Shown one piece after another: positions 2,204 to 57,479 of a stretch of DNA of 64,000 nt. Source of the DNA: Geosiphon pyriformis (taxonomy: Eukaryota; Glomeromycota; Glomeromycetes; Archaeosporales; Geosiphonaceae); the NCBI GenBank assembly GCA_016748015.1, contig JAAOMT010000523.1:1351595-1415594 (forward strand), in the 5' to 3' direction. Below the pieces are notes generated by a model. That model did not search any database and was not told the DNA's origin. It saw nothing but the letters and a program-made list of their open reading frames with translations. How positions within the stretch are numbered: position 1 is the stretch's first letter; each line of letters starts with the position of its first letter. Made by a program: the position numbers and the translations under genes.

Positions 2204-3023
2204 TGTTACAGGGGATTATTTCTGCTGTTGAAGTAAATAACAACCCATAACTTGGTGCTCAAAAGCTACTTCCATTGATAATGTTCTAAAGATATTATAT
2301 CTAAAAGTTTTGATAGAGTCTTTTGTATAATGGACAGATATTCAATAGTATCGATAGTAGATGTATCTTTCCAAGAGTTTTCCCAATTTCTTTCTCAGCA
2401 TGGTGGCCAGATTTAGTCTGACAGTTATGTCTTTCTGGTAAGCTATCTGATAATATATAAAATCCTATCCTTATTTCTGGGTCTTTTACCAGGCTATCCT
2501 TGATGTCAATAACTCAGTGCTTAATCCTTTTACTCAATTAGTAAACAACAAAAGAAAATAAAATAAAGAAAATAAAAGAAAATAAAGAAGAAAAGAAATA
2601 AGTCCAAGTGGTTTAACAGGTTAATATTCCATCAATAGCCATGATCAAGAGCTATTGTTCCAGTGTGGTTAAGTATCAATTACTATTAACATGAAGTGTT
2701 GATAGTAGAGAGAAGATTGAGATATGGAATAATTATTTATTTGATGATTTTGTTTTTTGGCTAAAGATTCTGTGATATCGATTCTGTCTTTTCAGTTTTT
2801 AATACTACTGTTATATATACATAATTGAGATTCCTTAATTCCTTAATTCTTCATGACAGGAATTCTGGAATTCCTGGAATCCTGCAATTCCTTGTTGAGG
2901 AATCCTGAAATTCTTGGAATCCTGTAATTACTGAGAGGAATCCTGGAATTCCACATTTACTATGCTTACTTCTGATTGGCTAATAATTATGCTAATATAT
3001 TTCCTATATTTCTATAAGTAACA
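2204..3023 (-). repeat. 3' LTR of element 1 (820 bp)
   Basis: It runs from TGTTAC to GTAACA. On the minus strand the order is an array of GGAATYC motifs (U3, about 2850-2955), a TATA-like run at about 2812-2822, two stem-loops (2633-2657 and 2682-2706) and a pyrimidine-rich tract. It differs from the right LTR mainly by transitions and by the number of U3 motifs. Confidence 0.93.
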
Positions 3024-3044
3024 TTATTCTCTTCTTTTAATATT
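3024..3044 (-). other. polypurine tract of element 1
   Basis: Immediately inside the 3' LTR, the minus strand reads an A/G-rich run ending AAAAGAAGAGAATAA against the LTR. This is the expected primer site for plus-strand DNA synthesis. Element 2 has a similar tract at 41398-41418. Confidence 0.75.
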
Positions 3045-3700
3045 GAGCTCCATCAAAATCTAACTCATGTAATTCCCCCTTTTGAAGTATTTCCTGGATT
3101 TTGTTTTCAAGAATTACTTGTGTTATTTGGGTCTGTAATTCTTCAAATTGAGCATTGGTGATTTTTTCCAATTGATTACTGGTAATTATATCCATTGCTT
3201 TGTTAAGCAATATTTCTGGTTTATCCTGAAACGTTGTGTGTATGCAGTATATGACTCGGGCTTATGTAGATAAGTTGTTTTTTCCCACAAAATGTTCTAA
3301 TTGTTGTAGTATTTTTTTGTCAAATAATCACTTGGTTTTATCCGTATATAGATTCTGGATATTTATGTATTGTCCCAAGTAAAAATAACAATAGTTTTGT
3401 GGAAATTGTTGTATCCACCAATTCCAAGTTTCTTTAGTTAACTCTTGATATAGTGACTCTTTTGTCGATTTTTTTATTGCTAATTTTACTTTCACAATAA
3501 TTTTGTCCACCATATTTTCAGTTTTCTTTGGTGTTCTGAGTTGCAATGTCTTTCTAGTATCTTAATATCGAATGATTTGTTGATTGATTGTAATCTCTAT
3601 TTCCTGGTGTTGGATTAATTGAAAGAGTTGTTGTGCTAGTGTGTGAATATTGTCTGTAATTTCCATTTTTCTAATATTTCCTGTTGCATCTATCCTATCT
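3040..3700 (-). pseudogene. C-terminal tail of element 1 polyprotein
   Basis: Interrupted coding sequence corresponds to the tail better preserved in element 2 at 41411-41872. It includes NYCYFYLGQYINIQNLY (3328-3546) and ends near the LDFxGAQY motif before the PPT. No known domain was recognised. A related ending is seen in the family II element near 30880-30925, so this tail is shared by distinct gypsy families here. Confidence 0.55.
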
Positions 3701-3782
3701 TTATATATTCTTTTAATTGATCAATTTAACATTTGTTGTTGATAATAATGATTGGTTCCAGATCTCGTGGAATCTCATCTGG

Positions 3783-4080
3783 TCAGACTAGTATTCTCTG
3801 TACTCCTAATTGTGGAATATTATTGGTAGATGGTAGTGTGATGTCGCAATATGGCTTCAGTTGATCTCCATGTACTGCTTTGGTTAAAATTTTGTTATCC
3901 AATCTTAATTTGTAAGCTCCATTTCCTAGAATTTCTTCTATGTGAAATGGTCCGTCCCATTTGGGGTCAAATTTTTTACTCCATTGTTTTTCCACTTTGG
4001 TACAATGTAGTAATACTTTGTCTCCAATCTTGAATTCAACTGGTTTGTTTGGTAGTTGATTATCGTGTCTTTTTTTCTGT
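3783..4080 (-). pseudogene. integrase C-terminal domain, element 1
   Basis: The translation has DPKWDGPFHIEEILGNGAYK and HGDQLKPY. This is the small beta-barrel (GPF/Y-like) module that follows the catalytic core in Ty3/gypsy integrases and contacts DNA. It is in a different frame from the core at 4118-5101, so an indel separates them. No chromodomain was recognised after it. Confidence 0.75.
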
Positions 4081-4117
4081 TTTTTTTGTGACTTTGAATA
4101 TTATCAGCTGCTTTTCT

Positions 4118-5101
4118 TCATTTGTTTTTCAATGTTTCTATTAAGTCATATGTTCTTCTCAGCAATGTTTCTTGAAAATTTTCTTCTGTTATTGGTTCAG
4201 CTGGATATGTATTAATTTTTCTCTCTACTGGTAACATTGTTGTTCTTCCATATACTAATTTAAATAGTGTTGCCTGTGTAGTATCTTGTTTCATTGTCCG
4301 ATAAGCAAATAGTACTGATGGTATGAACAAATCTCAATCATTCTGGTTTTCTTGGCTGAGCTTAGCTATTGCTTCACACAGTGTTCTATTGAATCTTTCT
4401 ACTAATCCGTTGGTTTGTGGATGGTATGGTAATGATAATAGTCTCTTAATTCTGAATCTTTGGCTTAATTCTGTTAATGTTCTGTTCACAAAATAAGTTC
4501 CTTGGTCTGATAATAATTCTTTTGGACATCCATGTTGACAAATCAAATCCTGATGAACGAATTTGGCAATGGATTCTGCATCTGCTTTTTAAATTGCTTT
4601 TGCCTCTGGCCATTTAGTGAAATAGTCCATAGCTACTGCTATGTATCTGTTTTCTCTACTGGTAATTGTTAATGGTCTGACTAAATCAATTCCAATATGG
4701 TCAAATGATTGTCCTACTTTGATTGGTTTTAATGGTTCACTGGGTCTTATTCCTCCTCTTCACTGACAAGCATCACAATTTTGAACATATTGAATGATAT
4801 CTGAGTATATTGATGGCCAATAGTATCTCTTTCTGGTTCTTTCTATGGTTGTTTCTTTGTGAAAATGTCCTGCTGTTGGATTTGAGTGCATGTTGAATAA
4901 TATTGTCTCTTTTTCTGGCTCCGTAATTACTCTGGTTGGTTGATCTGGATCCTTTCTATTTTTCTGATAAAGTATATTTTGGTGAGTGATAAAATATTTT
5001 GATTGTTGTTTGATACTCTTTCGTTCTGTTTGAGATAAATTCTCCTTGAACTGTTGAGTATTTATATAATGTTGCAATTGTTGATATTTTTGTATGTTCA
5101 T
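4118..5101 (-). pseudogene. integrase (HHCC finger and DDE core), element 1
   Basis: One minus-strand frame is broken by stops. The zinc finger is HSNPTAGH followed by CDAC. The catalytic core shows GIDLVRPL (first Asp), LLSDQGTYF (second Asp) and GLVERFNRTL (Glu), so all three acidic residues survive. Stops fall at a codon that is Gln in element 2 (after WPEAKAI, near 4590), at the probable Trp before DLFIPS (near 4334) and after CQ near 4757, where element 2 has CAA; a CGA ancestor would explain both. This integrase is better kept than that of element 2 at its catalytic residues. Confidence 0.85.
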
Positions 5102-5189
5102 CTTTTGTTGTATTTTTCCATTGGTATTGTTCTGGTTTTGTTATATTTTTGGGTTGAAATGTTCTTAGATTTGTCTCATTCACAATAAA

Positions 5190-5509
5190 CTGTTCGCATT
5201 TCTGTTGTCTTTTCCTTTTTTATAATGTATAGTATACTTATATGGTGCAAATGCCATTTTCTATCTTGACTGTCTTCCATCTCCAAATTCAGTATATTGC
5301 TAAGTGTTCTTTTTCTGGTGTTCCATAGTTCTTTTCGGCTGGTATATGCCACTGGATGTTCTCTGCCATCTGGTCCTCTCTAAGATAATACTGCTCCTAA
5401 TGTCTAGCCGGATGTATCCGTGGTGATGATGAATGGTTTGCTGTGATCTGGATAGATCAATACTGGAGCTTGTATAAGCTTTCTTTTTTAGAATATCAAA
5501 AGCTTCTTG
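5190..5509 (-). pseudogene. RNase H region with internal deletions, element 1
   Basis: By comparison with element 2 (43538-43990), about 86 bp are missing near 5290, corresponding to 43664-43749 of element 2. A further short stretch is missing near 5342. The lost part includes the segment equivalent to EIYTDHKGL, so this RNase H cannot be functional. The 86-bp loss also breaks the frame. Confidence 0.7.
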
Positions 5510-6103
5510 TTAACTTTCAGTCCATTCATATTTTGTATCTTTGTTTTGCAGTTGGTTGAGTGGCTGCACTATCTTGGAAAAGTTCTTGATAAAACATTGA
5601 TAGTAGCTGGCAAATTCCAAGAATAATTTCAGTTCTGTCATATTGGTTAGCACTGAAAAGTTCTTTACTATCTCTATTTTCTCCAAATCTGTTTTGACGC
5701 TGTCTTTGCTGACTATATGTCCCAAGAATTTTAGTTCTGTCTTGCCGAAGAAGCACTTTGTTGCATTTAACTTTAGTCCTGCTCTTCTTAGTCTTTTGAA
5801 CACTTGTTAAAGATGATGAAGATGATCATCAAACGTTTTTGAAAATACATTGGTGTTGTCCAAGTATACAACTACTGATTTCCACAATAAGCCAGTATAA
5901 ACAATTTCCATTAGCCATTGAAAAGTTGCTGGAGCATTGGTTAAGCCAAATGGCATCACTTCAAATTTGAAATTCCCTTCTCTAGTAGTAAATGCCGTCT
6001 TCTCTTTGTCAGCTGGATTCATGGCTACTTGCCAGTAACTACTGTCCAAATCTAATGTTGAAAACCATTTGTTTCCACTGAAAGTGTCGAATAATTCTTG
6101 TAT
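5510..6103 (-). pseudogene. reverse transcriptase core, element 1
   Basis: The sequence includes FSTLDL, FGLTNAPATFQ, and VVVYLDNTNVFS at the active site, followed by GLKLNATKC and FLGHIVSK, all in the same frame as the upstream dUTPase ORF. The catalytic YxDD is YLDN here, so the second Asp is lost; element 2 has the same change. Stops occur at the codons after PTP (near 6103) and HHL (5804-5806), and after EWTES (near 5510). Confidence 0.88.
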
Positions 6104-7288
6104 TCATGGAGTTGGATAACTGTCTCCATGAGTTACACCATTGAGTTTTCTGTAGTCTACACAAAACTGGATTTTTCTATTCTTCTTACAGATGAGTACT
6201 ACTGGTGATGACCATGGACTCATTGATGGTTGAATTAGCCCATTGTTAAGCATTTTGTTTATCTCTTGACAAATGATTTTGTGGCTGGCTGGCGGCACTC
6301 TGTATATTCTTTGTTTGATTGGCATTGTATCTCCAGTCTTGATCTGATGCTGGATGATGTCAGTTTGGCCAAACTCATTTTCACTGGCAAAGATGTCATT
6401 GAAATTGTTAAGTAACATCTTAAGCTGCATACATTGGAGTGGATCTAAGTTTTCCATGTTCATTTGTTCCAATTGTTCCAGTTGGAGCAAATAACATTCA
6501 TCTTGTTCATAGATTGTTTGTGATGTGATGTCAACATATCCACAAAGTTGTGGAAAGTCTGGAATAGGGTTTGGTGGTTGGTCTTCTATTTCTGTAATTA
6601 AATATCCAATGGTGGTTCCTTCTGGTATGTTGATGACATTGCCAGTATTATTGTAGATGGGAATTTTTATGCTATTATAGCTTTTGGCTGGTATGTAGAG
6701 ATTGATCAACCTAATCTTTCCTGATTCACAAAGGTTTGTTTCAGCTTCAAAAATTTGTCCTTGCTCCTTTTTTTTTCTTCCTATTGCTAACATGTACTGG
6801 TTATATAGTAGAATGGAAATAGCTTGACCAGTTGAGATAATTTCTCCTTGGCCAACAATTTCTTCCTCCGCCATATTAACTGGTACCTCTATTCTACCCA
6901 TTGATCCAAATCCTTGTATTCCTCTCGCTGTTATTTCTAATTTTTTCCTCTTTCCTACTGACACTAACTGAGCTACTCTAATCAGAGACAAGAATATTGT
7001 CTGTGCTATCTTTTTGTTGGGCTCTATTATATAGGCCTTTTTTGAGTCATTTTGTAGCATGGTGATGATATTTCCTATATATTCCATGTTAATTATTCCT
7101 CCTCTTATATTGATCCCTCTTTTCGCTAAACTACTCCTAGATGCTAATTGAACTATTGTTGTTGCCAGAATTTCTAGTGTTATTTTCAGATCAATGCAGG
7201 TGTGTGAATGCAGTTCCAATTTAATGGTATCTTTTCTTGAATATCTCAGATCAAACTCTGTATCCGTATCATGTGCACGTTCTGGCAT
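6104..7288 (-). CDS. dUTPase domain plus linker and N-terminal RT of gypsy element 1 (394 codons open)
   Basis: Residues 1-135 carry all five dUTPase motifs in order: FDLR (about 12-15), ASRSSLAKRGI (49-59), GGIINMEYIGNI (63-74), KIAQTIFL (93-100) and RGIQGFGSMG (122-131). dUTPases hydrolyse dUTP to dUMP and keep uracil out of DNA. Motif 3 has Asn where element 2 has the catalytic Asp, so this copy is probably inactive. A linker follows, with the IPIYNNTGNV and IPEGTTIGYL elements common before gypsy RTs. From about residue 340 comes the RT start, with SPWSSPVVLICKKN and FCVDYRKLN. The first Met codon follows an uninterrupted upstream frame with stops, so it is an internal residue of the polyprotein rather than a true start. 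Confidence 0.88.
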   Translation of the reverse strand: MPERAHDTDTEFDLRYSRKDTIKLELHSHTCIDLKITLEILATTIVQLASRSSLAKRGINIRGGIINMEYIGNIITMLQNDSKKAYIIEPNKKIAQTIFLSLIRVAQLVSVGKRKKLEITARGIQGFGSMGRIEVPVNMAEEEIVGQGEIISTGQAISILLYNQYMLAIGRKKKEQGQIFEAETNLCESGKIRLINLYIPAKSYNSIKIPIYNNTGNVINIPEGTTIGYLITEIEDQPPNPIPDFPQLCGYVDITSQTIYEQDECYLLQLEQLEQMNMENLDPLQCMQLKMLLNNFNDIFASENEFGQTDIIQHQIKTGDTMPIKQRIYRVPPASHKIICQEINKMLNNGLIQPSMSPWSSPVVLICKKNRKIQFCVDYRKLNGVTHGDSYPTP

Positions 7289-7525
7289 AATACCTTTCCC
7301 ATTGTCACTATATCATTTTAACTCTTGTTCCTTAAAGAGATCTGGTAATGCAATGTATTGTTCGTAGTTTAAATCAGAGTTTGAATCTGAGTTGGCATTA
7401 GTATTATTGTTGTCGCCATATTAAATGGAGTTGGAACTGGTGTTTTCATTGTTATCATTGTCAGAGTTTAAATTGGGATTGAAAATTGATTCCGATTCTG
7501 ATGCACATCTGCTAATTGGTTCTTT

Positions 7526-8190
7526 CTATTCAGAGATTATATAGATCATGTGTGGTGGTAGATTGTAAATAAGGTCACACTCATCACAATATTGGAAGTT
7601 ACAGGAAATTAGGCAGTGTTGACATAGTCGAGCATTTAACTGCTCTAACTGTTGTTTTTGTTTTTCCCTTGTGGGTGCTAATTCTTGGTAGTGTTTGTGG
7701 AATTGTTCCGGATCTAGGAGATTTATGATGGGTTCTGCATCCCAGTCAAGCTCTAAAGATTCTAGAGGGTTGTCTTTAATCATTTTTATTTCCTTAGGTG
7801 ACATCCCTTCAATTTTGGCAAGTGCCATTCACCAAATTTTGTCGTTATCATATGAACAACTGTCCAGTCGCTATATGGCTCTTCTTCAGACTGATTCTAT
7901 TGGGGTTCCTTTTCTTACCCAGTTGCTTATTAGAATCGTGTATTGACACAATACGTCACACGTTCCTTTACGTCCTGGGATGTTATTTCACATTCTTTCA
8001 TCTAAGAGAGTTTCTTTACAGGCTATACATGGCATATTATCCCATTTTCCCATTCGTTTTGGTCTGCCAAAACATTCGATACAGCATGCGCGGCAATAAA
8101 ACTTGGTTGCCGTCTGATATTCTTTGTCGTCACCACAGCATGTGCCCATCGACGACAATTTCTTACTGCAATCAATGCATATCAATTTGG
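7526..8190 (-). pseudogene. Cys-rich putative zinc-binding region between protease and dUTPase, element 1
   Basis: This minus-strand frame, shared with the protease and dUTPase, has a chain of CxxC knuckles: CIDC, then CC, CRACCIEC and CIAC (7988-8185), and further on CQHC with YCDEC (about 7560-7625). A helical, Lys/Glu-rich segment (7640-7828) lies between them. Element 2 repeats the same pattern at 46020-46690. The spacing suggests two zinc-ribbon or treble-clef-like modules. I do not recognise the family, and binding of zinc is inferred only from the Cys pattern. Confidence 0.6.
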
Positions 8191-8614
8191 GTCAGTGATA
8201 GGTCGATGGTTGTTGTTGACTGTAGGTGTATGGGATATAAGTATTGTTGACTTGAGTGTTTTCTTCTTCTTTCTCTTTCCCTTTTCCCTTTTTTTTTTTG
8301 TTTTTTTTCCAATTTCAGCTTGAAGTCAGTTCGCTCTTGTCATTGTCGGTCCAGGTCAAGTCATCGGTTTCCCAGGTAAATTCTTCTTTTTGTTTCCCTT
8401 TTTCATTGTCGTTGTCATTCCAAGGAAGTATTGGCGGCAGTTTGTTGTGCTTTTCATCAGCCCACAACACTTGGTAGGCTTCCCAGATAGGTTTCTTTTT
8501 CTTCTCCTCCAGTTCAATTAATAGTTTTTCTCTTGGAGGAGTCTTGAAGTGGCTACACGTGGCCGGTACACATATGTGTTGGCCCTAATATGTTAGCTGG
8601 AGTTTTTGGGTGTT

Positions 8615-9250
8615 CTAGTCTAACATTGTGTTGACTTTGGATAACCAGTCATTACCAACGAGAGCTTGGTATTGAGTGGCTTCCATCACTAAAACTTTAA
8701 TGAGAGTCATGATGCCATTGATTTCGAAAGGGAAGTCGTCAATTTCGCCAATTGGAGTTTTGTCCACTCCATCAGCTGTGATGATTCTGGCACTGGCAGC
8801 TTGATCAACTCGGTGACCTAATTGTTCCATGAGTTGCCATGTGATGATACTGTCTGCTAAACCACTGTCAAGGATTAATTTAATGGATTGTCCCTCGACT
8901 TTGGCATCAGTGTACATTGCAGTGATTGGTTTGGCTTCAAGAGCAGCTCCACTAAATAATGGTGTTGCAGCTGTTTCCTTGAATTTGAATAGAAAGATAG
9001 CAGCCAAGGACTTGTCTTCGGTGATGGTAGCAAGTGGAATATTACTGGTGAGTGGTTGTTTTTGGGCAAATGCTGGGTTATTGGTTGAGGTGTCTTCTGG
9101 AGTGACCAGAAGACTTAAATAGTTCTGGGAATTTGGGTTTTGGGCTTGACCAGTACCCAAATTCTGCTGGCATAATCCAGATAATTGCTGTGAAGAACTG
9201 GAGATCAGTTGATAAACTACTATTGCCAATCTCCAGCTCTGTTGAGTCAT
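8615..9250 (-). pseudogene. retropepsin-like aspartic protease region, element 1
   Basis: It is open for 211 codons. The active-site block LILDSGLADSIIT lies near 8850-8880. The second block, ALVGNDWLSK, lies near 8645-8670, in the order expected for gypsy proteases, which act as dimers to mature Gag-Pol. The third residue after DSG is Leu here; element 2 has DSGSAD. The frame upstream is gag. Confidence 0.8.
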
Positions 9251-9529
9251 TTTCAGTCTTTGTGTTCTGTTGGGTGGTAAGCTTTGGAGTGGTGTTTGGA
9301 TTTGTTGGGATTGATAGATTATTTGTGGCTGCGGTTGTTAATAAATCACTTGTGGCTGTGGTTGATAGATTGGAGCTTGGTACACTGGAGACTGATAGAT
9401 GAATGTCTGTGTCATTGGTAGGTAAGCGGATTGGTTTTCATTTGGGTATTGATTTGGAGTTTGGAACTGGCAATCAGGGTTTCAATATTGATTTCCTGAT
9501 TGTTGGTTATTTAAATGCTGGCAACAGTC

Positions 9530-11651
9530 AATTTAGATGTGTTCTTGTTTACCACAATAGTAGCAGATACACGTTTCTTGTTGCCACCATTAATTGGTCA
9601 ATGAAGATGGATGTGGCTGATTTTGGGCATGATTAGAGTTTCCTTGATTATTGCATCGTTGTGAAGGCTAATAAATGGCATGATTGTCAGCTAAGTATCC
9701 TTCCAATTTCTTATTAATTGATTCACTGAACTTCTCCAATTTAGAATCCAATTCAGATGATCCGTTCATTACTAGATTAATGGCTTGGGCATAGTTGGTC
9801 TTTGACTCAGCAGATTCAAAATTTCTGGCATGTGTAACTGCATCTTAAAGGGTACCTGAATGCAACGGACATACATGTTGCAAGATGCTGCTGCACAGGC
9901 CACAAATAAACTAATTGAGTATCTGTGGTGCTGTGAAATAGTTGGCATCAATTGCTTGAACTTAGCATAGATTTTGATGGAAGTGTCCTAGGTAAGTGGT
10001 GACTGCTTTAGTTTCTTCTTGTTTCATGGTGATGAATGTATTGACTAGGCAATTGATGCTGTTATTGTTGCTAAAGTATCTTAGGAATTCCACTTTGAAG
10101 ACATTAAAATCTTGTGGTTTATTAATTAGGCTGGTACCATGAATTGGCAGTATCCTTGAGAAAGTAGAGAATGACTTGCATTGCTCGAGCGTCATTCCAT
10201 CCATTGGCTGCAATGGCCTTTTCTATATCATTCAGCCATACTTGAGCATTATCCTCTTTGTCAGTAAAGTTGTCAAGTTTTGCAATTGGTACATAGGTCA
10301 TTGGATCTAAGTTAGATGGTTGTGGTGCTGTTGAAGCAGTTGTTGTTATACTGGTTGTTGAGGTGGTAGTTGAAGTGGCTACTGTATGGGTTCGGCTATG
10401 GAATTAATTAGTGGTTGATTGATGACAATTACCGGAGGTAAGTTTTGCTGATTAATTAATTTGGAGTTTGGATTGTTCTGCCTTTAATGATTCGGAGTTT
10501 TGATTTCTGAATTTTCTAGATTTGGATTTTGCTGAGTTTGAAAATTTGGGGTTTCAACTTCCAGGTTTTCAGTGATTGGGCACTGATAAGTGAATTCTTG
10601 ATCCTCTGATTCTTCTTCCTCTTTTTCTGATTCTGCTGCTTCCCACGGATCAGAGATTCTGAAATCTGGTGGAGGCAATGGTGATCAAAGTTCTAATGGA
10701 GCTGATGATCGTGAATTAAATCCCTTAAAGTATTCACCGTATGGTCCTAACAATTCTGTTTTCCTTTGTCTACTTTGGAATGGAAATCGTCCAAATGCTA
10801 ATGTCGCAGTTGATGGAAATGTGTCTGTTAATGATATGTTAATGGCACTTCTAGGTGTATAGTGGTAGGATGGGTTGCTTGGGAATTCAACTCTGTTTTT
10901 CTTCCAAGCAGGTGGCTGTATTTTTCTGGGTGTTACTGCTGGTGTTTGTAATTTTCCCTTGTCTTTACTAGCATATGTAATTGGATATCTTTGTTGAGTG
11001 TGATGTTCAATTTCTTTGTTGATCTCAGTGATGATGGATGTGAAATTATGATTTGTTAGTAGATTGGTGTTTTGAATTAATTCTTTATAAAAAGTTTTCT
11101 TTGCTGATTCAGTATTCACTGGTGTTTCTAATAAAGAGGAAATCTTTTCATTGACATAGAAATTGAAGGCTAATTCGGCGGATATATGATTGTGGTTTAA
11201 TTCCAAGTATTGACAATAGTGTTGAAATAAGAATTTTGCGAATCCTAAATGGTTTGCTCCTATATTTTCTGATTCTGCCACNNNNNNNNNNNNNNNNNNN
11301 NGTTACTGCTGGTGTTTGTAATTTTCCCTTGTCTTTACTAGCATATGTAATTGGATATCTTTGTTGAGTGTGATGTTCAATTTCTTTGTTGATCTCAGTG
11401 ATGATGGATGTGAAATTATGATTTGTTAGTAGATTGGTGTTTTGAATTAATTCTTTATAAAAAGTTTTCTTTGCTGATTCAGTATTCACTGGTGTTTCTA
11501 ATAAAGAGGAAATCTTTTCATTGACATAGAAATTGAAGGCTAATTCGGCGGATATATGATTGTGGTTTAATTCCAAGTATTGACAATAGTGTTGAAATAA
11601 GAATTTTGCGAATCCTAAATGGTTTGCTCCTATATTTTCTGATTCTGCCAC
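9530..11651 (-). pseudogene. Gag region of element 1 (capsid-like domain, Q/P-rich linker, CCHC knuckle)
   Basis: Gag begins at a GTG at 11649-11651 (duplicated at 11279-11281 because of the gap). No in-frame ATG is seen for about 198 codons. The N-terminal domain (10685-11281) is followed by a stop at a probable Arg codon, an acidic and Gln-rich linker (10484-10678) and a Retrotrans_gag-like domain with FLRYFSNNNSIN (near 10060). The zinc knuckle CYYCGKQEH...IDC is at about 9530-9565 and carries a stop inside it. The product would form the particle and package RNA. This copy is broken by several stops. Confidence 0.8.
10932..11651. other. exact 350-bp duplication flanking a 20-N gap (assembly artefact)
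   Basis: Positions 10932-11281 and 11302-11651 appear identical base for base on reading, with N at 11282-11301 between them. The unit is the start of gag. Element 2 has one copy of this segment. This looks like two overlapping contig ends joined by a gap rather than a real tandem duplication. Confidence 0.92.
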
Positions 11652-11693
11652 TTTTGGTTTGGTGTTGTCAGTACTGGTTCTCTGTAAGATTAT

Positions 11694-11711
11694 ACCTCAC
11701 AGGGAGCACCA
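11694..11711 (-). other. primer binding site of element 1
   Basis: On the minus strand, TGGTGCTCCCTGTGAGGT starts 2 nt inside the 5' LTR. It is complementary to a tRNA 3' end ...ACCTCACAGGGAGCACCA. Counting back, complementarity stops at tRNA position 59, just before the usually methylated A58, which gives the classic 18-nt PBS. The pattern CCTCAC...GAGCACCA resembles elongator tRNA-Met of fungi and animals (from memory). Confidence 0.75.
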
Positions 11712-11713
11712 AA

Positions 11714-12571
11714 TGTTATAGGGGATTATTTTTGCTGTTGAAGTAAATAACAACTCGTAACTTGGTGCTCAAAAGCTACTTCCATTAATAATGTTCTGAA
11801 GGTGTTGTATCTGAAGGTTTTGATGGAGTCTTTTGTATAATAGACAGAGATTCAATAGTGTCAATAGTAGATGTATCTTTCCAAGAGTTTTCCCAATTTC
11901 TTTCTCAGCATGGTGGCCAGATTTAGTCTGGCAGTTGTGCCCTTCTGGTAAGCTATCTGATAATATATAAAATCCTACCCTTATTTCTGGGTCTTTTACC
12001 AGGCTATTCTTGACATCAATAACTCAGTGTTTAATCCTTTTACTCAATTAGTAAACAACAAAAAAAAATAAAATAAAGAAAATAAAAGAAAATAAAGAAG
12101 AAAAAAATAAGCCCAGGCGGTTTAGCAGGTTAGTATTTCGTCAATAGCCATGATTAAGAGCTATTGTTCCAGTGTGGTTAAGTATCAATTACTATCAACA
12201 TGAAGTGTTAATAGTGGAGAGAGGATTGAGATATGGAATAATTATTTATTTGATGATTTTGTTTTTTGGCTAAAGATTCTGTGGTATTGATTCTGTTTTT
12301 TCTGTTTCTAATACTACCGCTATATATACATAATTGAGATTCCTCAATTCCTCAATTCTTCATGACAGGAATTCTGGAATTTCTGGAATCTTGCAATTCC
12401 TTTGAAAAGAATCCTGGAATTCTGGAATCCTGCAATTCCTCATCGGAGAATCCTAAAATTTCTGGAATCCTGTAATTCCTGAGAGGAATTTTGGAATTCC
12501 ATATTTACTACACTTACTTCTGATTGGTTAATAATTATGCTAATATATTTCCTATATTTCTATAAGTAACA
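11714..12571 (-). repeat. 5' LTR of element 1 (858 bp)
   Basis: It runs from TGTTAT to GTAACA and has the same layout as the left LTR. The TATA-like run is at 12321-12329, read on the minus strand. It is longer than its partner mainly through extra GGAATCC-type motifs at about 12370-12500. Confidence 0.93.
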
Positions 12572-12724
12572 GCACCAAAAACTTATTATAAAGTGTAGTA
12601 TCCTTATAACTTTGTAAAATACAAGCTAAAAAGATAATATGTTTTTTGTTATTAGATATAGTAAAATTAAAAAACAAAGAAAAAGTATGATTAAGACTCT
12701 GATCAGATAAAACTGATTCAAAAA
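12572..12724. other. AT-rich flank of element 1
   Basis: This starts with the TSD copy GCAC (12572-12575). No other signal is seen before the minisatellite. Confidence 0.5.
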
Positions 12725-13525
12725 TTTGACTTAATTACTTATATAATTAATAATAATTTAAAACTTAAAACAATTTAAAACTCTAATTTAAAACTTGGGA
12801 CAATTCGAAACTCTAATTTAATTACTTATATAATTAATGATAATTTAAAACTTAGAACAATTTGAAACTCCAACTTAATTATTCATATAATTAATAATAA
12901 TTTAGAACTTGAAACAATTCGAAACTCTGACTTGATTACTTATATAATTGATAATAATTTAAAACTTGAAACAATTTGAAACTTTGACTTAATTATTTAT
13001 ACAATTAATAATAATTTAAAACTTGAAACAATTCGAAACTCTAACTTGATTGTTTATACAATTAATAATAATTTAAAACTTGGAACAATTTGAATTTCTA
13101 ACTTGATTATTTACAAGATTAGTAATAATTTAAAACTTAGAACAATTCAAAATTCTGATTTAATTACTTATACAATCAATAATAATTTAGAACTTGGAAC
13201 ATTTAAAACTTTGATTTAATTATTTACAAAATCAGTAATAATTTAAAACTTAGAACAATTTGAAACTCTAACTTGATTAGTTATACAATTGATGATAATT
13301 TAAAACTTGGGACAATTCAAAACTTCGACTTAATTACTCATATAATTAATAATGATTTAAAATTTAGAACAATTTAAAACTATGACTTAATTATTCACAA
13401 GATCAATAATAATTTAAAACTTGAAACAATTCAAAATTTCGACTTGATTACTTATACAATTAATGATAATTTAAAACTTAGGACAATTCAAAACTCTGAT
13501 TTAATTATTTATATAATTAATGATC
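12725..13525. repeat. minisatellite, about 57-bp unit, about 14 copies
   Basis: The repeating blocks are 'aattacttatataattaata', then 'ataatttaaaactt', then 'gaaacaattcgaaactctga'. Unit starts are spaced close to 57 bp (for example near 12871, 12928, 12985, 13041 and 13098), with one partial unit near 12782. Units differ almost only by A/G and C/T exchanges. No coding capacity is seen. Confidence 0.9.
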
Positions 13526-14456
13526 ATTCTGTTAAATAAGTAATATTATATTATCATATAGCATTTTTAATCATGAAAATATTGGTTTGTTTTATTGTAG
13601 TTTTACCAGAATTAGCAGAATTTAAACTAAATCTAGCACTTAAAATAATTTATACTAACAGTAAAAAATTATAGATTATTGAATATTACAAGTATAAGTT
13701 ATAAACATAAAAATTTTTTAATTACTAAATTAATAAATTCAAAATACTATGGTTTATTACAAATTATGAGTTATCTCAGTATGAGTTATTTTAAATTTAA
13801 CTGTACATTTTTTTTAAAATACAAAGCAAAAATTATAACAAAATATAATCTATTTTATGTCATATATTAAACATAATTTACATATAACCAGCTATTTAGA
13901 CTTATGTTAAAATTATATTAAACTAGACTTTAATACTTAAATTTAATTTCTTATTTATCTTGATTTTAATAACTTGATTTATTATTTTAAACTTTTAAAG
14001 AAGTTTTATTCTTTTTTAAAATAATAATAAAACATGTTTTTTTATTGAAATTTTCAATAATATTTAGCAATAAAACATTAAATTAATCAGTAGTTTATAT
14101 ATAAGAAATAAAATATTTTTTAATATAAACATTATAATATAATTAAAAAAAATAGTTTTATCAAAAATAAAATAATTTGAATTTTAATACTTGTTATAAT
14201 ATTAATAATTAAAGGTTTTTTGTATTAATTATCTAATATTACATAATTAGTCATTTTATTTTTGGATAATAATTATTAACTTAATATATAATTTAATTAA
14301 TAATTTTTTTTTATTAAATTTAATATGTATTTTAATTATTATTTAATATAAAGAATTAAATTAAATAATAAATATTGGATATATTTTATGTATTTTTTAT
14401 ATATAATTAAATATAAATTTAATTTAAACTAAACTATTATTATGAATAAAAACTAT
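13526..14456. other. AT-rich non-coding stretch
   Basis: Very AT-rich sequence with no convincing gene. About 14215-14300 resembles part of the family III repeat (tattaatt...ataattagtcattttattttt), a possible additional worn copy. Confidence 0.4.
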
Positions 14457-40492: not shown

Positions 40493-41397
40493 TGTTATAG
40501 GTGATTATTTCTGCTATGGAATTAAATAACAACTCTGTAACTTGGTGCTCAAAAGCTATCTTGATTTCTATTAATGTTGGTATTGGTAATCTGAAGGTTT
40601 TGATATCTGAAGGTTTTGGGTTGAGTTTTTTGTATAATAAACAGAGATTCTATTGTAATTGTAATAGTCTTCAAAATCACAATTCCGTCCAATTTCTTTC
40701 TCAGCGTAGAGACTGGATTTATTCTGGTAGTTCTGTCCTTCTGGTAAGCTATCTGATAATAAATAAAATTCTACTCTTATTTCTGGGTCTTTTACCAGGC
40801 TATCCATGATGTCAATAACTTAGTGCTTTTAATCCTTAATCAATTAATATAAAACAACAAAGCAAAAACAGAAAAAAAAAGAAAAGAAAGAAAGCAAATA
40901 ATATAAAATAAAGCAAATAAGCCAAGGCGATTCTAATTCATATCCCGTCAATAGCCATGATCAAGAGCTATTGTTCCAGTATGGTTAAGTATCAGTTACT
41001 ATCAACACTTCATGTTGATAGTAAAAAAGAAATTTGATATAGTGAATAATTATTTTATTTGAAGATTGTGGTAACTAAGCTAAGAATTCTTGGTGTCAAT
41101 TCTGTTTTTTTCTGCTTTTAACACTACTACTATATATACATATTTGAGATTCTTTAATTTCTCAATTCCTTGCAACAAGAATCCTGGAATTCCTGGAATC
41201 CTGTGATTCCTGATGAAAAGAATCCTGCGATTCTGGAATCCTGTGATTTCTTGTTAGAGAATTCTGAAATTCCTGGAATCCTGCAATTCCTCTAAGAGGA
41301 ATCTTGGAATTTCACATTTACTATGTCTACATCCTATTGGCTAATATCTACTGACTAATAATAATAATACTATATTTCCTATATTCTATGAGTAACA
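40493..41397 (-). repeat. 3' LTR of element 2 (905 bp)
   Basis: It runs from TGTTAT to GTAACA. Stem-loop 1 is at 40949-40973 (CAATAGC/GCTATTG, 11-nt loop) and stem-loop 2 at 40998-41022 (ACTATCAAC/GTTGATAGT, loop acttcat). The U3 array of GGAATCC motifs is at about 41175-41310. It is followed inside by the PPT at 41398-41418. Confidence 0.93.
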
Positions 41398-41410
41398 TTA
41401 TTCCTTTCTT

Positions 41411-41872
41411 TTAATATTGAGCTCCACTGAAATCTAATTCTTTTAATTCTCCCTCTTGAAGTATTTCCTGAATTTTGTTTTCGAAAATTACTTCTGTTAT
41501 TTGAGTCTGTAATTTTTCAAATTGAGCCTTGGTAATTTTTCCCAATTGATTACTGGTAACTATATCTATTGCTTTGTTGAATAGGATTTCTGGTCGATCC
41601 TGAAATGCTGTATGTATCCAGTATATAGTTCGAGCTTGTATAGATAAGTTGTTTTTTTCCACAAAATGTTCTAGTTGTTGTAGTATTGTTGTGTCAAATA
41701 ACCACTTTGTTTTATTCATATATAAGTTCTGAATATTCACATGTTGTTCCAAGTAAAAATAACAATAATTTTTTGGAAATTGTTGTGTCCACCAAGTCCA
41801 AGTTTCTCTGATAAGTTCTTGGTGTAATCTGACTATTTGTTGTTCTTTTATGGCCAATTTTATTTTGGTCAT
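41411..41872 (-). pseudogene. C-terminal tail of element 2 polyprotein
   Basis: Open for 153 codons, Gln/Glu/Trp-rich, with NYCYFYLEQHVNIQNLY and ending LKELDFSGAQY next to the PPT. No known domain is recognised. Its conservation in elements 1-3, and its end motif in family II, suggest a retained role, perhaps in integration or particle assembly (speculative). Confidence 0.55.
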
Positions 41873-42155
41873 AATCTTGTTGACAACATTTTTAAGTTTT
41901 TTCTGTGCTTTGTTTTGTGGTATCTTTGCTGTATTTTTGTAATAAATGGTTTGTTAATTGATTGTAATTTTCATCTCCTGGTGTTAGATTAATTGAAAGA
42001 TTTGTAGGCTAGTGAATGGATATTGTCTGTAATTTCTATTTTTCTGATCTTTTCTGTCGCGTCAACCATGTTTTTATATATTTTTTTGTCAATCAATTGG
42101 ACGTGTTGTTGTCAATGATAATGATTGGTTCCAAATCTCGTGGAATCTCATCTGG

Positions 42156-42490
42156 TTAGACTAGTATTCTCTGTACTTCTAATTGTGGAATATTATTGAT
42201 AGATGATGATACTATATGGTGGTATAATTTCAGTCGATCTCCATGTGCTGTTTTGGTCAAGATTTTGTTATTCAACCTTAATTTGTAAGCTCTATTTCCT
42301 AGAATTTCTTCTATGTGAAATGATCTGTCCCATTTGAGGTCAAATTTTCCACTCCATTGTTTTTCCACTTTGGTATAATGTAGTAGTACTTTGTCTCCAA
42401 TCCTGAATTCAACTGGTTTATCTGGTAGTTGGTTATTATGTCTTTTTTTTTGTTTCTCTTGTGACTTTTGTATGTTATCAGCTGCTCTTT
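42156..42490 (-). pseudogene. integrase C-terminal domain, element 2
   Basis: It contains KQWSGKFDLKWDRSFHIEEIL and GNRAYKLRLNNKILTK, matching the GPF/Y-like module of element 1, with Gly-to-Arg changes (WDRSF for WDGPF; GNRAY for GNGAY). It shares the frame of the integrase core. Confidence 0.75.
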
Positions 42491-42491
42491 G

Positions 42492-43475
42492 TCATTTGTT
42501 TTTTAATGTTTCTCTTAAGTCATATGTTCTTCTCAACAATGTGTTTTTGAAATTCTCTTCTGTTATTGGTTCGGTTGGGTATGTGCTAACTTCTATTTCC
42601 ACTGGTAGTGTTGCTGTTCTATCATATACTAATTCAAATGATGTTGCTTGTGTAGTATCTTGCTTTATTGTCCGATAAGCAAATAGTACTAATGGTATCA
42701 ACAAATTCCAATCATTCTGGTTTTCTTGGCTGAGTTTAGCTATTGTTTCACACAATGTTCTGTTGAATCTTTCGACTAATCCATTGGTTTGTGAATGGTA
42801 TAATAATAATAATGGTCTCTTAATTCCGAATCTTTGGCTCAATTCTGTTAATGTTCTGTTCACAAAATGAGTTTCTTGATTTGAAAGTAATTCTTTTGGA
42901 CATCCATGTTGACAGATCAAATTTTGATGAACAAATTTGGCAATGGATTCTGCATCCGCTCTTTGAATTGCTTTTGCCTCTGGCCATTTAGTGAAATAGT
43001 CCATGGCTACTGCTATGTACTTGTTTCCTCCGCTGGTGATTGTTAATGGTCTGACTAAATTAATTCCAACACAGTCAAATGGTTGTCTCATTTTGATTGG
43101 TCTTAATGGTTTACTGGGTTTTGTACCTTCTCTTTGCTGACAAGCATCATAATTTTGAACATATTGAATGATGTCTGGATATATTGATGGCCAATAGTAT
43201 TTTTTTCTGGTTCTTTCTATGGTTGTTTTTTTGTGAAAGTGTCCTGCTGTTGGATTTGCATGCATGTTGAATAATATTGTCTCTTTTTCTGGCTCTGTAA
43301 TTACTCTGGTTGGTTGCTTTAGATCTCTTCTATTTTTCCAATACAGTATGTTTTGGTAAGTGATAAAATATTTTGATTGTTGTTTAATACTCTTTTGTTT
43401 TGTTTGAGATAAATTCTCCTTGAACTGTTGAGTGTTTATATAATGTTGCAGTTGTTGATATTTTTGTATGTTCAT
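42492..43475 (-). CDS. integrase of element 2 (327 codons open, catalytically broken)
   Basis: The frame is uninterrupted from the zinc finger to the end of the core. HANPTAGH is followed by YDACQ, so the first Cys of the CxxC is Tyr. The core has GINLVRPL (first Asp is Asn, near 43060), LLSNQETHF (second Asp is Asn, near 42880) and GLVERFNRTL with Glu kept. Element 1 has Asp at both positions, so the losses are recent and all G-to-A. The open frame is therefore misleading: the enzyme cannot be active. Confidence 0.88.
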   Translation of the reverse strand: MNIQKYQQLQHYINTQQFKENLSQTKQKSIKQQSKYFITYQNILYWKNRRDLKQPTRVITEPEKETILFNMHANPTAGHFHKKTTIERTRKKYYWPSIYPDIIQYVQNYDACQQREGTKPSKPLRPIKMRQPFDCVGINLVRPLTITSGGNKYIAVAMDYFTKWPEAKAIQRADAESIAKFVHQNLICQHGCPKELLSNQETHFVNRTLTELSQRFGIKRPLLLLYHSQTNGLVERFNRTLCETIAKLSQENQNDWNLLIPLVLFAYRTIKQDTTQATSFELVYDRTATLPVEIEVSTYPTEPITEENFKNTLLRRTYDLRETLKNK

Positions 43476-43537
43476 TTTTTGTTATATTTTTCATTGGTAT
43501 TGTTCTGGTTTTGTTATATTTTTGGGTTGAAATGTTT

Positions 43538-43990
43538 TTAGATTTGTCTTATTTGTGACAAACTGTCAGCATTTCTGTTGTCTTTTCTTTTTTTATAATG
43601 TATAGTATAATTATATGGTGCGAGTGCTATTTTCCATTTTGACTGTCTTCCATTTCCAAATTCTTGTTTTTGAAGTAATGTTAGTCCTTTGTGATCTGTG
43701 TATATTTCAAACTTCTGGCTCAAGTATTCTTTCCATTTCATGACTGCTCAGTATATTGCTAAGTGTTTTTGTTCCAGTGTTTCATAGTTCTTTTTGGCTG
43801 GTGTTAAACCTCTACTAGCATATGCTACTCAATGTTCTCTGCTGTCTGGTCCTCTCTAAGATAATACTGCTCTCAATGCTTGGCCAGATACATCAGTAGT
43901 GATGATGAATGGTTTGCTGTGATCTGAATAGATCAGTACTGGAGTTTGAATGAGCTTTTTTTTCAGAATATCAAAAGCTTCTTGTTAACT
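43538..43990 (-). pseudogene. RNase H of element 2
   Basis: It shows FIITTDVSGQALRAVLS, KNYETLEQKHLAI, FEIYTDHKGLTLLQKQ and KKRKDNRNADSLSQ (43538-43741), the usual Ty3/gypsy RNase H and tether sequence after RT. Stops occur at Trp and Gln-type positions. Unlike element 1, there is no internal deletion. Confidence 0.82.
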
Positions 43991-44705
43991 TTCTGTCCAT
44001 TCATATTTTGTATTCTTGGTTTGCAGTTGGTTAAGAGGCTGCACTATCTTGGAGAAGTTTTTGATAAAATGCCAATAGTAGCTGGCAAATTCCAAGAATA
44101 ATTTCAGTTCTGTCATATTGGTTGGCATTAGAGAGTTCTTTACTATCTCTATTATCATTGGATCCGTTTTAATGCTGTCTTTGCTAACTATGTGTTTCAA
44201 GAATTTTAGTTCTGTCTTGCCAAAGAAGCACTTTGTTGCATTTAACTTTAGTCCTGCTATTTTTAGTCTTTCGAACACTTATTGAAGATAATGAAAATAA
44301 TCATCAAATGTTTTTGAGAATACATTGGTGTTGTCCAAATATACAACTACTGATTTCCACAATAAACTGGTGTAAATGATTTCCATTAGCCATTGGAAAG
44401 TTGTTGGGGCATTGGTTAAGCCAAATGGCATTATTTCAAATTCAAAATTCCCCTCTCTAGTAGTGAATGCCATTTTCTCTTTGTCAGCTAGATCCATGGC
44501 TACTTGCCAGTAACCACTGTTCAGATCTAATGTTGAAAACCATTTGTTTCCACCGAAAGTGTCGAATAATTCTTGGATCTGTGGCGTGGGGTAACTATCT
44601 CCACGAGTTATTCCATTGAGTTTTCTATAATCTACACAAAAGCGAATTTTCTCATTCTTTTTCCAGATGAGTATCACTGGTGATAACCATGGGCTCATTG
44701 ATAGC
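43991..44705 (-). pseudogene. reverse transcriptase of element 2
   Basis: SPWLSPVILIWKKN, FCVDYRKLN, FSTLDLNSGYWQVAM, FGLTNAPTTFQ, VVVYLDNTNVFS and GLKLNATKC give the full finger-palm series in one frame with a stop at about 44279. The active site is YLDN, the same change as in element 1. Confidence 0.88.
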
Positions 44706-44977
44706 TAAATTAGCCCATTGTCAAGCATTCAGTTTATCTCTTAATGGATAATCTTATGGCTGGCTGGTGGTACTCTGTATGCTCTTTGTTTAATTGGCAT
44801 TGCATCTTCAGTCTTAATCTAATGCTGGATGATGTCAGTTTGGCCAAACTCATTTTTGCTGGCAAAAATGTCGTTGAAATTGTTAAGCAACATCTTAAGT
44901 TGCATACATTGGAGTGGATCTAAGTTTCCCATGTTCATTTGTTCCAACTGTTCTGGTTGGAGCAAATAACATTTGTT

Positions 44978-45763
44978 TCATCCATATATTGTTTGTGATA
45001 TGATATCAACATATTCACAAAGCTGTGGAAAGTCTGGAATAGTGCTTAGTGGTTGATCCTCTATTTCTGTGGTCAAATATCCAATGATGATTCCTTCTGA
45101 TATATTAACAACATTTCTGGTGTTGTTGTAGATGGGAATTTTGATGTGGTTATAGTTCTTGGCTGGTATGTGGAGATTGATGAGTCCAACTTTTCCTAAT
45201 TCACAAAGACTTGCTTCTGCTTCAAAAATTTGTGCTTGGTCTTTTACCTCCCTCTTTATTGTTATCATGTACTGGTTATATGATAGAATAGAAATTGCTT
45301 GACTGGTTGAGATAATTTCTCCTTGGCCAACCATTTTTTCTTCTGCCATATTGACTGGCACATCTATTCTACCTGTTGATCCAAATCTCTGTATTCCTCT
45401 CGCTGTTATTCCTAATTCCTTCCTCTTTCCCACTAATACTAACTGAGCTACTCTAACCAGAGGCAGGAATATTGCCTGTGCTATCTTTTTGTTAAGCTCT
45501 ATTATATAGGCTTTTTCTGAGTTATTTTGTAGCATAGTGATGATATTTCCTACATATCCCATGTCAATTATTCCCCCTCTAATGTTTATTCCTCTTTTCA
45601 CTAAACTACTCCTAGATGCTAATTGAATTATTGTTGTTGCTAGAATTTCCAGTGCTACTTTCAGATCAATACAGATGTGTGAATGTGGTTCCAATTTGAT
45701 GGCCTTTTTTTCTGGATATCTCAGATCAAATCTTGCATTAGTATCATGCACTTGTTCTGGCAT
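44978..45763 (-). CDS. dUTPase domain and linker of element 2 (261 codons open)
   Basis: The five dUTPase motifs are FDLR, LASRSSLVKRGI, GGIIDMGYVGNI (catalytic Asp and Tyr present), KIAQAIFLPL and RGIQRFGSTG (one Gly replaced by Arg). The domain covers about residues 1-135, close to a normal trimeric dUTPase subunit length. It sits in the same frame as the protease upstream and RT downstream. The rest is a linker with IPIYNNTRNV and IIIGYLTTEIED. As in element 1, its first Met is internal to the polyprotein. Confidence 0.88.
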   Translation of the reverse strand: MPEQVHDTNARFDLRYPEKKAIKLEPHSHICIDLKVALEILATTIIQLASRSSLVKRGINIRGGIIDMGYVGNIITMLQNNSEKAYIIELNKKIAQAIFLPLVRVAQLVLVGKRKELGITARGIQRFGSTGRIDVPVNMAEEKMVGQGEIISTSQAISILSYNQYMITIKREVKDQAQIFEAEASLCELGKVGLINLHIPAKNYNHIKIPIYNNTRNVVNISEGIIIGYLTTEIEDQPLSTIPDFPQLCEYVDIISQTIYG

Positions 45764-45895
45764 GATACCTTTGTTATTATCACTAAACCATTTAAGTTCT
45801 TGGTTTTTGGTGAGGTCAGAAAGTGTAATATATTGTTCGGGATCTGAATCGGAGTTTGAATCTGAGTTTATACCATTGTTATTGTTATTGCCATT

Positions 45896-46690
45896 TTAAC
45901 TGAAGCTTGAACTGTTGTTATTGTTATCGTCGTCAGAGTTTGAAGTGCAATTAATTGGTGATTCTGATTTCGATGTGCAGCTGCTGATTGGTTCTTCTTC
46001 CTCTGAGATTATGTAGATTATGCGTGGTGGTAGATTGTAGATAGGGTTACACTCATCACAATACTGAAAGTCACATGAGATCAAACAGTAGTTACATAGT
46101 CGGGTGTTTATCTCTTCCAAGCATTGCTCCTGTTTCTTTTTCATGAGTGCTAATTGTTAGTAGTGCTCATAGAATTCCTCTGGATTGTCTTTAATGTCAC
46201 CGAAAGCATTGAAGGTTTGGACATATTTAGGCTCAGGTAAAGATAGTGGGTTGTTTTTAATTTCTCTTAGCTCCTCTGTTGTAGCGCCTTTTGACATAGC
46301 ATATGCCATTCTCCAGATTTTATTTTCATCATGTGGGTATTCTTCTAGATGTCTTAATGCTTGTTTCCAGGCGTTGTCAATGGGCATTCCCTTTCATACC
46401 CAGTCATTGATTAGGATTGTGTATTGGCATGTCTCATCGCATGCTTTTCCTCTTCCAGGAATGTCTTTTCACATTCCTTTATTTAAGAAAGTATCTCCAC
46501 AAGCTAAACACAAGGTGCCATCCCATTTTCCTATTTTTGGTGGTTGTCCATCACGTTCGAGGACACATGGGCAACAGTAATATTTGGTTGTGATGGACTA
46601 TTTCTTATCTTTGTTGCAACATGCGCCCATTAATGACAATTTCTTGCCACAATTGATGCACACTAGCTTGAGTCGACAGTATTGAGCTGG
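45896..46690 (-). pseudogene. Cys-rich putative zinc-binding region, element 2
   Basis: The Cys pattern of element 1 is repeated: CINC, CC, CCPC and CLAC (about 46480-46660), then CNYC with YCDEC (about 46030-46110), followed by an acidic Ser/Asn-rich segment leading to the dUTPase. Between them lies a helical part (46157-46387) with LEEYPHDENKIWRMAYAM. The function is unknown. Confidence 0.6.
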
Positions 46691-47049
46691 GAGTTGGCAA
46701 GTGTATGAGACATAAGTTGACTCATTGGCTAGTGTTGGCTCTTCTTCTCGTTCCTTCCCTTTTCCTTTTTTTTCCCAACTCCATTCAGTGGTTGGTTTGC
46801 TCTGGCTGTCATTACTCCATGCTCCTAGGTTTGGCTCTCAAGCAAGTTCTTTTTCTTCCTTCTTCTTTCCCTTGTTATCTCATGAGAGTATGGGTAGTAG
46901 TTTGTTGTGGTTGACATCGGCCCAGGAAACTTGGTAAGCTTCCCAGATAGGTTTTTTTTTCTTCTCCTCCAGTTTGATCAATAGTTTCTCTCTTGAAAGA
47001 GTCTTGAAGTGGCCACACATGGCTGGTACACATATGTGTTGGCCCTAAT

Positions 47050-47710
47050 ATGTTAGCTGGAGTTCCTGGGTGTTTCAGTCTAACATTGCATTGACTTGGA
47101 ATAGCCAGTCATTACTAACGAGAGCTTAGTATTGGGTGGCTTCTATCACTAAAACTTTAATGGAAGTCACGATGTTGTTGATTTTGAAAGAGAAGTCATT
47201 GATTTTGCTGATTGGAGTTTTGGTCACTCCATCAGTGGTGATAATTCTGGTACTGGCAGTTCAGTCAACTTGGCGACCTAATTAATTCATAAGTTGTTGT
47301 GTGATGATGTTATCTGCTGAACCACTGTCAAGGATCAATTTGATGAATTGTCTTTCAACTTTGGCATTAGTGTACATCGCAATGATCAGTTTGGCTTCAA
47401 GAGTGGCTCCACTAAATAATGGTGTTGCAGTTGTTTCCTCGAATTTGAATGAGAAGATAGCAGCCAAGAACTCGTCTTCAGTGATGATAGCAGGTGGGAT
47501 ATTACTGGTAAGTAGTTGTTTTTGGGCAAATACTGGATTATTGGCTGAGGCATCTTTTGGAGTGACCAGAAGACTTAAATAGTTCTAGGAATTCGAGTTC
47601 TAGGGTTGACCAGTATCCGAATTCTACTGGCATAATTCAGATGGTTGTTGTGAAGAACTGGAAATCAGTTGATGGACCACCATCGCCAATCTTCAGCTTT
47701 GTTGAGTCAT
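47050..47710 (-). pseudogene. protease region of element 2
   Basis: KLILDSGSADNIITQQLM (near 47295-47345) is the intact active-site block, and ALVSNDWL lies near 47105-47130. Several stops (Trp/Gln codons) interrupt the frame, which is continuous with gag and dUTPase. Confidence 0.78.
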
Positions 47711-47851
47711 TCTTGGTCTTTGTGTTCCATTGGGTGATAAGTTTTGGAGTGGTGTTTGAATTTGTTGGGATTGATATATTATTTGCAGCTGTGGTTGTTG
47801 ATAAATTACTTGTGGCTGCGGTTAATAAATTGGAGCTAGATATACTGGTGG

Positions 47852-49771: not shown

Positions 49772-49813
49772 TTTTGGATGGTGTTTGTTGGTGTGGGTTT
49801 TCTGTAGAATTAT

Positions 49814-49831
49814 ACCTCACAGAGAGCACCA
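49814..49831 (-). other. primer binding site of element 2
   Basis: TGGTGCTCTCTGTGAGGT on the minus strand, 2 nt from the LTR, is the same site as in element 1 with one base different. It is compatible with an elongator-tRNA-Met-like primer. Confidence 0.75.
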
Positions 49832-49833
49832 AA

Positions 49834-56818: not shown

Positions 56819-57479
56819 TTATTTCTTTCTTTTTAATATTAAGCTCTGTCAAGATCTTTTAATTCTAATTCTTCATCTTTAAGTATTTTTTGAACTTTTT
56901 TTTCAAGAATTATTTGTGCTATCTTATTCTGTAAATCTTTGAATTGCACATTTGTTATTTTTTTTATTTGGTTAATGGTAATAGAATCCATTTCTGGATT
57001 GAGTAAGATTTTTGGTCGATCTTGAAATCAAGTGTGTAGCTGGTAAATGGCTTTTGCTTGTGTGGTTAAATTGTTTTTTCCCACAAATTGTTTTAGTTGA
57101 TGCAGTATTGTTGTGTCAAATAGTCATTTTGTTTTATTCATGTACAAGCTCTAAATGTTCAAGTGTTGTCCCAAATAAAAGTAATAAAAGTTTCTTGGAA
57201 ATTGTTGTATCTACTAATTCCAAGTTTCTATGGTTAACTCTTAATATTGGGTGATTTTTTGTTGTGTTTCTATTGCCAATTTCACTTTTGTGATTATTTT
57301 GTTAACAGTGTTTTCTGTTTTTCTCTGTATTTTCTCTCATGATCTTTTTTTGGTATTTGTATATTTAATAGTTTGTTGGTTGATTGTAATTTCTATTTCC
57401 TGTTGTTGGATTAGTTGAAAAAATTGTTGTGCTAGTAAGTAAATATTATTAGTAATCTCTATTTTCTGCTGTTTTTGTC

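Follow-up and report, generated by a model that had tools for sequence, protein, structure and literature searches.

The question raised by this locus is whether a retrotransposon family can carry a true dUTPase, how the family came by it and what the enzyme would do. The locus is a 64,000-nucleotide stretch of the Glomeromycotan fungus Geosiphon pyriformis (contig JAAOMT010000523.1, positions 1,351,595 to 1,415,594; hereafter the window), which holds two related long terminal repeat (LTR) elements. An earlier note, made from the sequence alone, had placed a dUTPase in the polyprotein of both, between protease (PR) and reverse transcriptase (RT). We found that a true dUTPase domain is present in this Ty3/gypsy-type family. 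Quite probably, both elements are decayed copies of a family whose Pol dUTPase was gained once, was kept under constraint and controls uracil near RT.

Profile searches detected PF00692 in an open reading frame (ORF) at 7288-6104 of element 1 (minus strand, 394 aa; E 5.7e-19, residues 1-129) and in one at 45763-44978 of element 2 (minus strand, 261 aa; E 4.6e-16, residues 6-131). The domain therefore lies where it had been placed (6883-7288 and about 45359-45763), on the minus strand, as the plus-strand translation of 6883-7288 contains stops; the profile search, proposed by the earlier note as a refuting test, gave a significant match in both elements. In PDB, phmmer matched 48 distinct sequences at E<=1e-3; almost all of them carry the name dUTPase, and the best is 3p48 (2.2e-10). 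Chance resemblance to dUTPase was rejected on the PF00692 E value of element 1, whose dUTPase ORF extends into the start of RT. The domain limits listed here were set by tblastn comparison with a family member.

2204-12571, minus strand: element 1, Ty3/gypsy-type LTR element (self-BLAST, LTR ends and flanks)
11714-12571 (5') and 2204-3023 (3'), minus strand: LTRs of element 1, target-site duplication GCAC
8600-8938, minus strand: aspartic protease of element 1 (tblastn; PF13975 E 2.9e-9 on ORF 9250-8615)
7577-8191, minus strand: Cys-rich module of element 1, between protease and dUTPase, broken by stops
6893-7312, minus strand: dUTPase domain of element 1, motif-3 catalytic Asp replaced by Asn (PF00692 E 5.7e-19)
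6419-6850, minus strand: linker of element 1, between dUTPase and RT, possible decayed dUTPase-like domain
5702-6268, minus strand: reverse transcriptase of element 1
40493-50736, minus strand: element 2, same family as element 1 (self-BLAST, LTR ends and flanks)
49834-50736 and 40493-41395, minus strand: LTRs of element 2, true ends 1-2 bases further, target-site duplication GCAT
47060-47398, minus strand: aspartic protease of element 2
46049-46678, minus strand: Cys-rich module of element 2, broken by stops
45368-45796, minus strand: dUTPase domain of element 2, catalytic Asp kept, motif-5 GFG changed to RFG (PF00692 E 4.6e-16)
44894-45325, minus strand: linker of element 2, between dUTPase and RT
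44177-44740, minus strand: reverse transcriptase of element 2
42492-43475, minus strand: integrase ORF of element 2, H2C2 zinc binding and core (PF17921 E 2.1e-15; PF00665 E 1.3e-7)

The Ty3/gypsy-type assignment rests on LTRs with target-site duplications and on Pol order. The 4-bp duplications, GCAC and GCAT, were read from the flanks; the LTRs of element 1 have TG...CA ends, and in element 2 one LTR ends in TA, not CA. The Pol order PR-RT-RNase H-integrase is found in that PR precedes RT, RVT_1 is followed by an RNase H-like domain in the genomic copy L007, and integrase lies downstream of RT in element 2, where the PF00665 match, at 32.2 bits, falls just short of the cut-off of 32.6. Protease, Cys-rich module, dUTPase, linker and RT share a single frame in each element (-1 in element 1, -3 in element 2), so that the described in-frame arrangement holds as to frame, but stops break up both coding frames. 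The LTR pairs differ by a Kimura two-parameter (K2P) distance of 0.083 in element 1 (60 transitions, 3 transversions) and 0.118 in element 2 (91 transitions, 4 transversions).

The motif set of homotrimeric dUTPases comprises catalytic Asp/Tyr, Arg-Ser in motif 2, Gln in motif 4, and R and GFGST in motif 5. Element 1 reads DTE for DAG in motif 1, Asn for the catalytic Asp of motif 3 and Met for Thr in motif 5; in element 2, motif 1 is NAR and motif 5 reads RFG, not GFG. The description of five motifs in both elements thus holds with a reservation, as motifs 1, 3 and 5 of element 1 and motifs 1 and 5 of element 2 are altered. Both window copies are dead, with many stops, the Asp to Asn change in element 1 and damage to two motifs (1 and 5) of element 2; they are old, decayed members of a large Geosiphon family.

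To describe this family, the Geosiphon genome (124.7 Mb, 406 contigs) was searched, and at least 150 dUTPase sites exceeded the Pfam cut-off when 150 of 3181 first-look candidates were scored. A set of 62 copies was assembled from the 20 best dUTPase matches (L001-L020), 40 taken down the ranking, with gaps, from the other 130 rows of the list (L033-L072) and the two window copies. The five parts (PR, Cys-rich module, dUTPase, linker and RT) follow in this order in 49 copies and a subset of them does so in the remaining 13; none is out of order, and the conservation of order in relatives, the other refuting test proposed, was upheld. In the case of L007 the frame is open over the 1132 aa covered, with Pfam matches to protease, dUTPase, RT and RNase H. 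The same layout is found in P0012, from a 19-kb contig, at 43% identity. A further set of eight copies was chosen by RT alone (L074-L081: eight consecutive rows of 150 RT matches, starting at the first with RT identity below 75%), their likeness to the window's subfamily being judged by eye; dUTPase is present in all eight, in one of them partially.

As to origin, a tree was calculated from 16 element dUTPases (15 of the 62 copies and P0012) and 8 other sequences. Other fungal gypsy, retroviral and poxviral dUTPases are absent from it because the protein searches were flooded by Geosiphon copies, which made up 48 of 49 matches (scoring in that search was limited to the 7992 candidates sharing most words), 36 of 36, and 120 of the best 120 of 3291; apart from Geosiphon proteins, P0012 alone was listed. 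All element dUTPases lie together on one side of a split supported at 98.1/100, and the host gene lies on the other, cellular side. Support within the seven cellular sequences is mostly low, with 63.6/48 for the grouping of host and yeast. This fits a single gain before the sampled subfamilies split, and the proposal of a dUTPase within a Ty3/gypsy-type polyprotein was borne out, the copies sampled sharing a common origin. No donor was found in scans that used short patterns and are weak: in prokaryote genome contigs none of 176 pattern matches was confirmed, and among 159 in viral contigs one dUTPase was confirmed, at 31%.

To see how the domain evolved, subfamilies A (25 copies) and B (35 copies) were compared. 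Synonymous sites between them are near saturation, and the pooled nonsynonymous difference rises from RT (0.214) over PR (0.286), dUTPase (0.306) and the Cys-rich module (0.380) to the linker (0.497). Within B the nonsynonymous-to-synonymous ratio, omega, was 0.19 for dUTPase, 0.15 for both PR and RT and 0.25 for the Cys-rich module; within A it was 0.41 for dUTPase, 0.42 for RT and 0.52 for protease. A neutral simulation, with mutation rates set by hand from the copies' spectrum, gave a median of 0.68 for dUTPase (5-95% of pairs 0.42-1.24) and 0.61 for RT (0.35-1.00). Stops in the 62-copy set number 13 in dUTPase (62 matches of at most 151 codons), 94 in RT (54 matches of at most 191 codons), 41 in PR, 91 in the Cys-rich module and 42 in the linker. 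Overall, the dUTPase rates fit a long-term constraint close to that of the protease and weaker than that of RT, and are equivocal in window-like copies. The decay itself is dominated by C>T and G>A, which account for 233 of 312 single changes in the 25 copies of subfamily A, with similar per-site rates on the two strands. At CpG, C>T is some three to six times as frequent in this subfamily (0.19-0.21 compared to 0.03-0.06), as expected for methylated CpG.

Uracil control, which the earlier note had suggested, is a fair inference and the likeliest role of the element dUTPase. In this mechanism, the protease would release the dUTPase, or a piece comprising the Cys-rich module and the dUTPase, and the released enzyme would trimerise in the particle and hydrolyse dUTP near RT. 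This would lower uracil in complementary DNA (cDNA) made while host dUTPase is scarce, and the Cys-rich module may anchor the enzyme to the particle or to nucleic acid. A single gain of the domain would predate the split of the sampled subfamilies, with constraint in active lineages and decay of the copies afterwards. Several observations weigh against this explanation. The 60 genomic loci were picked by dUTPase score, which favours intact dUTPases, as the stop counts show. Only half of the copies (31 of 62) have all nine key residues, and both window copies have damaged motifs. The structure models predict a dUTPase-type fold with a mean predicted local distance difference test score (pLDDT) of 48 and 56. 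For the eight copies chosen by RT, the omega of dUTPase, 0.48 (0.36-0.68), overlaps the neutral range, with RT at 0.18, so that constraint on the dUTPase in these copies is equivocal; in the window pair the values are 0.46 for dUTPase versus 0.21 for RT. Single changes show no excess of G>A over C>T (108 versus 125 in A, 42 versus 69 in B), and therefore no cDNA-uracil signature is visible.

Three other explanations were weighed against uracil control. The fold could be kept for a non-catalytic role, such as a trimeric scaffold, an RT cofactor or signalling, with catalysis dispensable. Motif 2 reads RSS, where the host enzyme has RSG; 8 of 62 copies, element 1 among them, have Asn for the catalytic Asp; and constraint is weak in the RT-chosen copies. 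But RSS is also found in a cellular enzyme, Entamoeba 3lqw, the Asp is retained in 54 of the 62 copies and in all eight RT-chosen ones, and its loss in element 1 is a single G>A change typical of decay. We regard this alternative as unlikely. That the dUTPase is an old captured passenger, now drifting in the window's subfamily with no benefit to the element, would agree with the omega of the RT-chosen copies (0.48, 0.36-0.68, compared to a neutral median of 0.68). Their uniform possession of the domain with its catalytic Asp speaks against this, as does a dUTPase protein divergence between subfamilies close to that of the protease despite near-saturated synonymous sites, and drift of this kind seems quite improbable. 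For a recent or repeated capture of the host gene by individual elements a possible donor exists in the host's own dUTPase (L029, G000:C262:402677), which has canonical motifs. However, this gene is intron-split, has Arabidopsis dUTPase as its best PDB match (4oop, E 3.5e-58), shares a mean identity of 29% with the elements and falls on the cellular side of the split. On this last ground host gene recapture was rejected, and its probability is very small indeed.

The Cys-rich module of about 200 aa between PR and dUTPase offers a possible link between uracil control and reverse transcription. L007 has 19 cysteines in this module; 15 of them are conserved in 79% or more of 34 copies from other subfamilies, compared to an average of 34% for other residues, and 13 are invariant across L007, L019 and P0012. 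The cysteines are paired, and the module therefore probably binds zinc. No Pfam match reached the curated cut-off (best zf-Vps39_C, E 0.013, 15.5 bits versus 24.7, in one of three members), NCBIfam gave no match, and in PDB nothing fell under 0.1 (best 0.17). A single model including the module has low confidence except for a helical part at about residues 421-490 (block means 63-85). A novelty here is this conserved 15-cysteine module preceding the dUTPase and lacking a match at the curated cut-off. With its place beside the dUTPase, it becomes possible to test whether uracil control is tethered to reverse transcription.

Regarding known systems, non-primate lentiviruses likewise carry a dUTPase in Pol, and structures from feline immunodeficiency virus and equine infectious anaemia virus were among the better matches. 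The lentiviral dUTPase sits between RT/RNase H and integrase. The earlier note took a dUTPase to lie outside the standard Ty3/gypsy set. Capture by Ty3/gypsy elements is not new: fungi and rotifers both have published examples with the order PR-dUTPase-RT. In fungi this order is given for PosPlaTy3-5 of Postia placenta, and dUTPase-bearing elements had been reported before from Phanerochaete and Tuber (Tmt1) (PMC2864245). Compared by published layout only, PosPlaTy3-5 resembles the Geosiphon elements in having dUTPase between PR and RT in Ty3/gypsy order; the text consulted mentions no Cys-rich module ahead of the dUTPase, and a figure legend names CCHC and HHCC zinc fingers (PMC2864245). The rotifer elements Juno, Vesta and TelKA also have dUTPase between PR and RT, and Juno has an extra zinc knuckle after the dUTPase, whereas Geosiphon has a larger Cys-rich module before it (PMC5408684). 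The suggested resemblance to betaretroviruses in position fails because the dUTPase there ends next to PR, i.e. before it. The betaretroviral enzyme is a trans-frame nucleocapsid (NC)-dUTPase lying behind NC and reached across reading frames, while that of Geosiphon follows PR in the PR frame; what is shared is the joining of dUTPase to a nucleic-acid-binding protein, NC (PMC4531489). Geosiphon would join NC-dUTPase and Juno as another instance of a retroelement dUTPase with a Cys-rich module of zinc type next to it. In Entomophthora muscae, PF00692 is reported to be enriched alongside retroelement families (PMC11105155). In the literature searched, no paper joined Geosiphon and dUTPase; two name both dUTPase and Rhizophagus, and dUTPase, retrotransposon and Glomeromycot- occurred together in PMC2864245 only. 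The present elements extend dUTPase-bearing Ty3/gypsy elements to a Glomeromycotan fungus and suggest an old single gain with long retention.

The linker between dUTPase and RT can be aligned in register (hhalign) with the part of dUTPases that runs from motif 2 to motif 4, with P values of 0.0044 for a mixed profile, 0.013 for element and 0.056 for cellular dUTPases, and an HHalign probability below 10% against each. In the shuffle control, which covered the element and cellular profiles, 0 of 100 column shuffles reached the score against the former and 3 of 100 against the latter. In Pfam scans PF00692 stayed below cut-off (E 0.12 in one of ten, 0.097 in one of four, probably the same window stretch). 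This is a weak hint, likewise new, that the linker may be a decayed dUTPase-like domain. A three-part insert between PR and RT, in which an undescribed 15-cysteine zinc module holds the trimeric dUTPase on nucleic acid and the RT linker is a further dUTPase-like domain that has lost its active site, is a bold and rather improbable extension. If it were true, and general for Ty3/gypsy PR-RT linkers, dUTPase would be ancestral to the lineage and repeatedly lost or reduced, with no repeated capture.

Some further observations concern the ends of the elements. A possible primer-binding site, TTTGGTGCTC(C/T)CTGTGAGG, adjoins the 5' LTR in both, from 11713 and 49833 downward on the minus strand. In element 2, an open frame at 41872-41411 (minus strand) lies between integrase and 3' LTR, and a similar stretch follows the integrase of element 1. 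Neither the ORF at 41872-41414 nor the integrase ORF of element 2 gave a chromodomain match in Pfam, the stop-broken stretch between them lying outside the scan, whereas chromodomain-containing elements are named in a supplement legend of the fungal source (PMC2864245). A GPY/F-like stretch was read, by eye only, in the integrase tail.

Elsewhere in the window, a third family element (56041-60906; LTRs 56041-56818 and 60105-60906, K2P 0.124, target-site duplication ACAG) lacks the protease-to-integrase stretch, with a junction near 58013. Another partial LTR-like copy at 62207-62724 has no partner LTR within the window. Identical 350-bp flanks (10932-11281 and 11302-11651) around a 20-N gap are probably an assembly artefact, and an array of tandem repeats, each unit being about 57 bp long (12716-13528), adjoins element 1.
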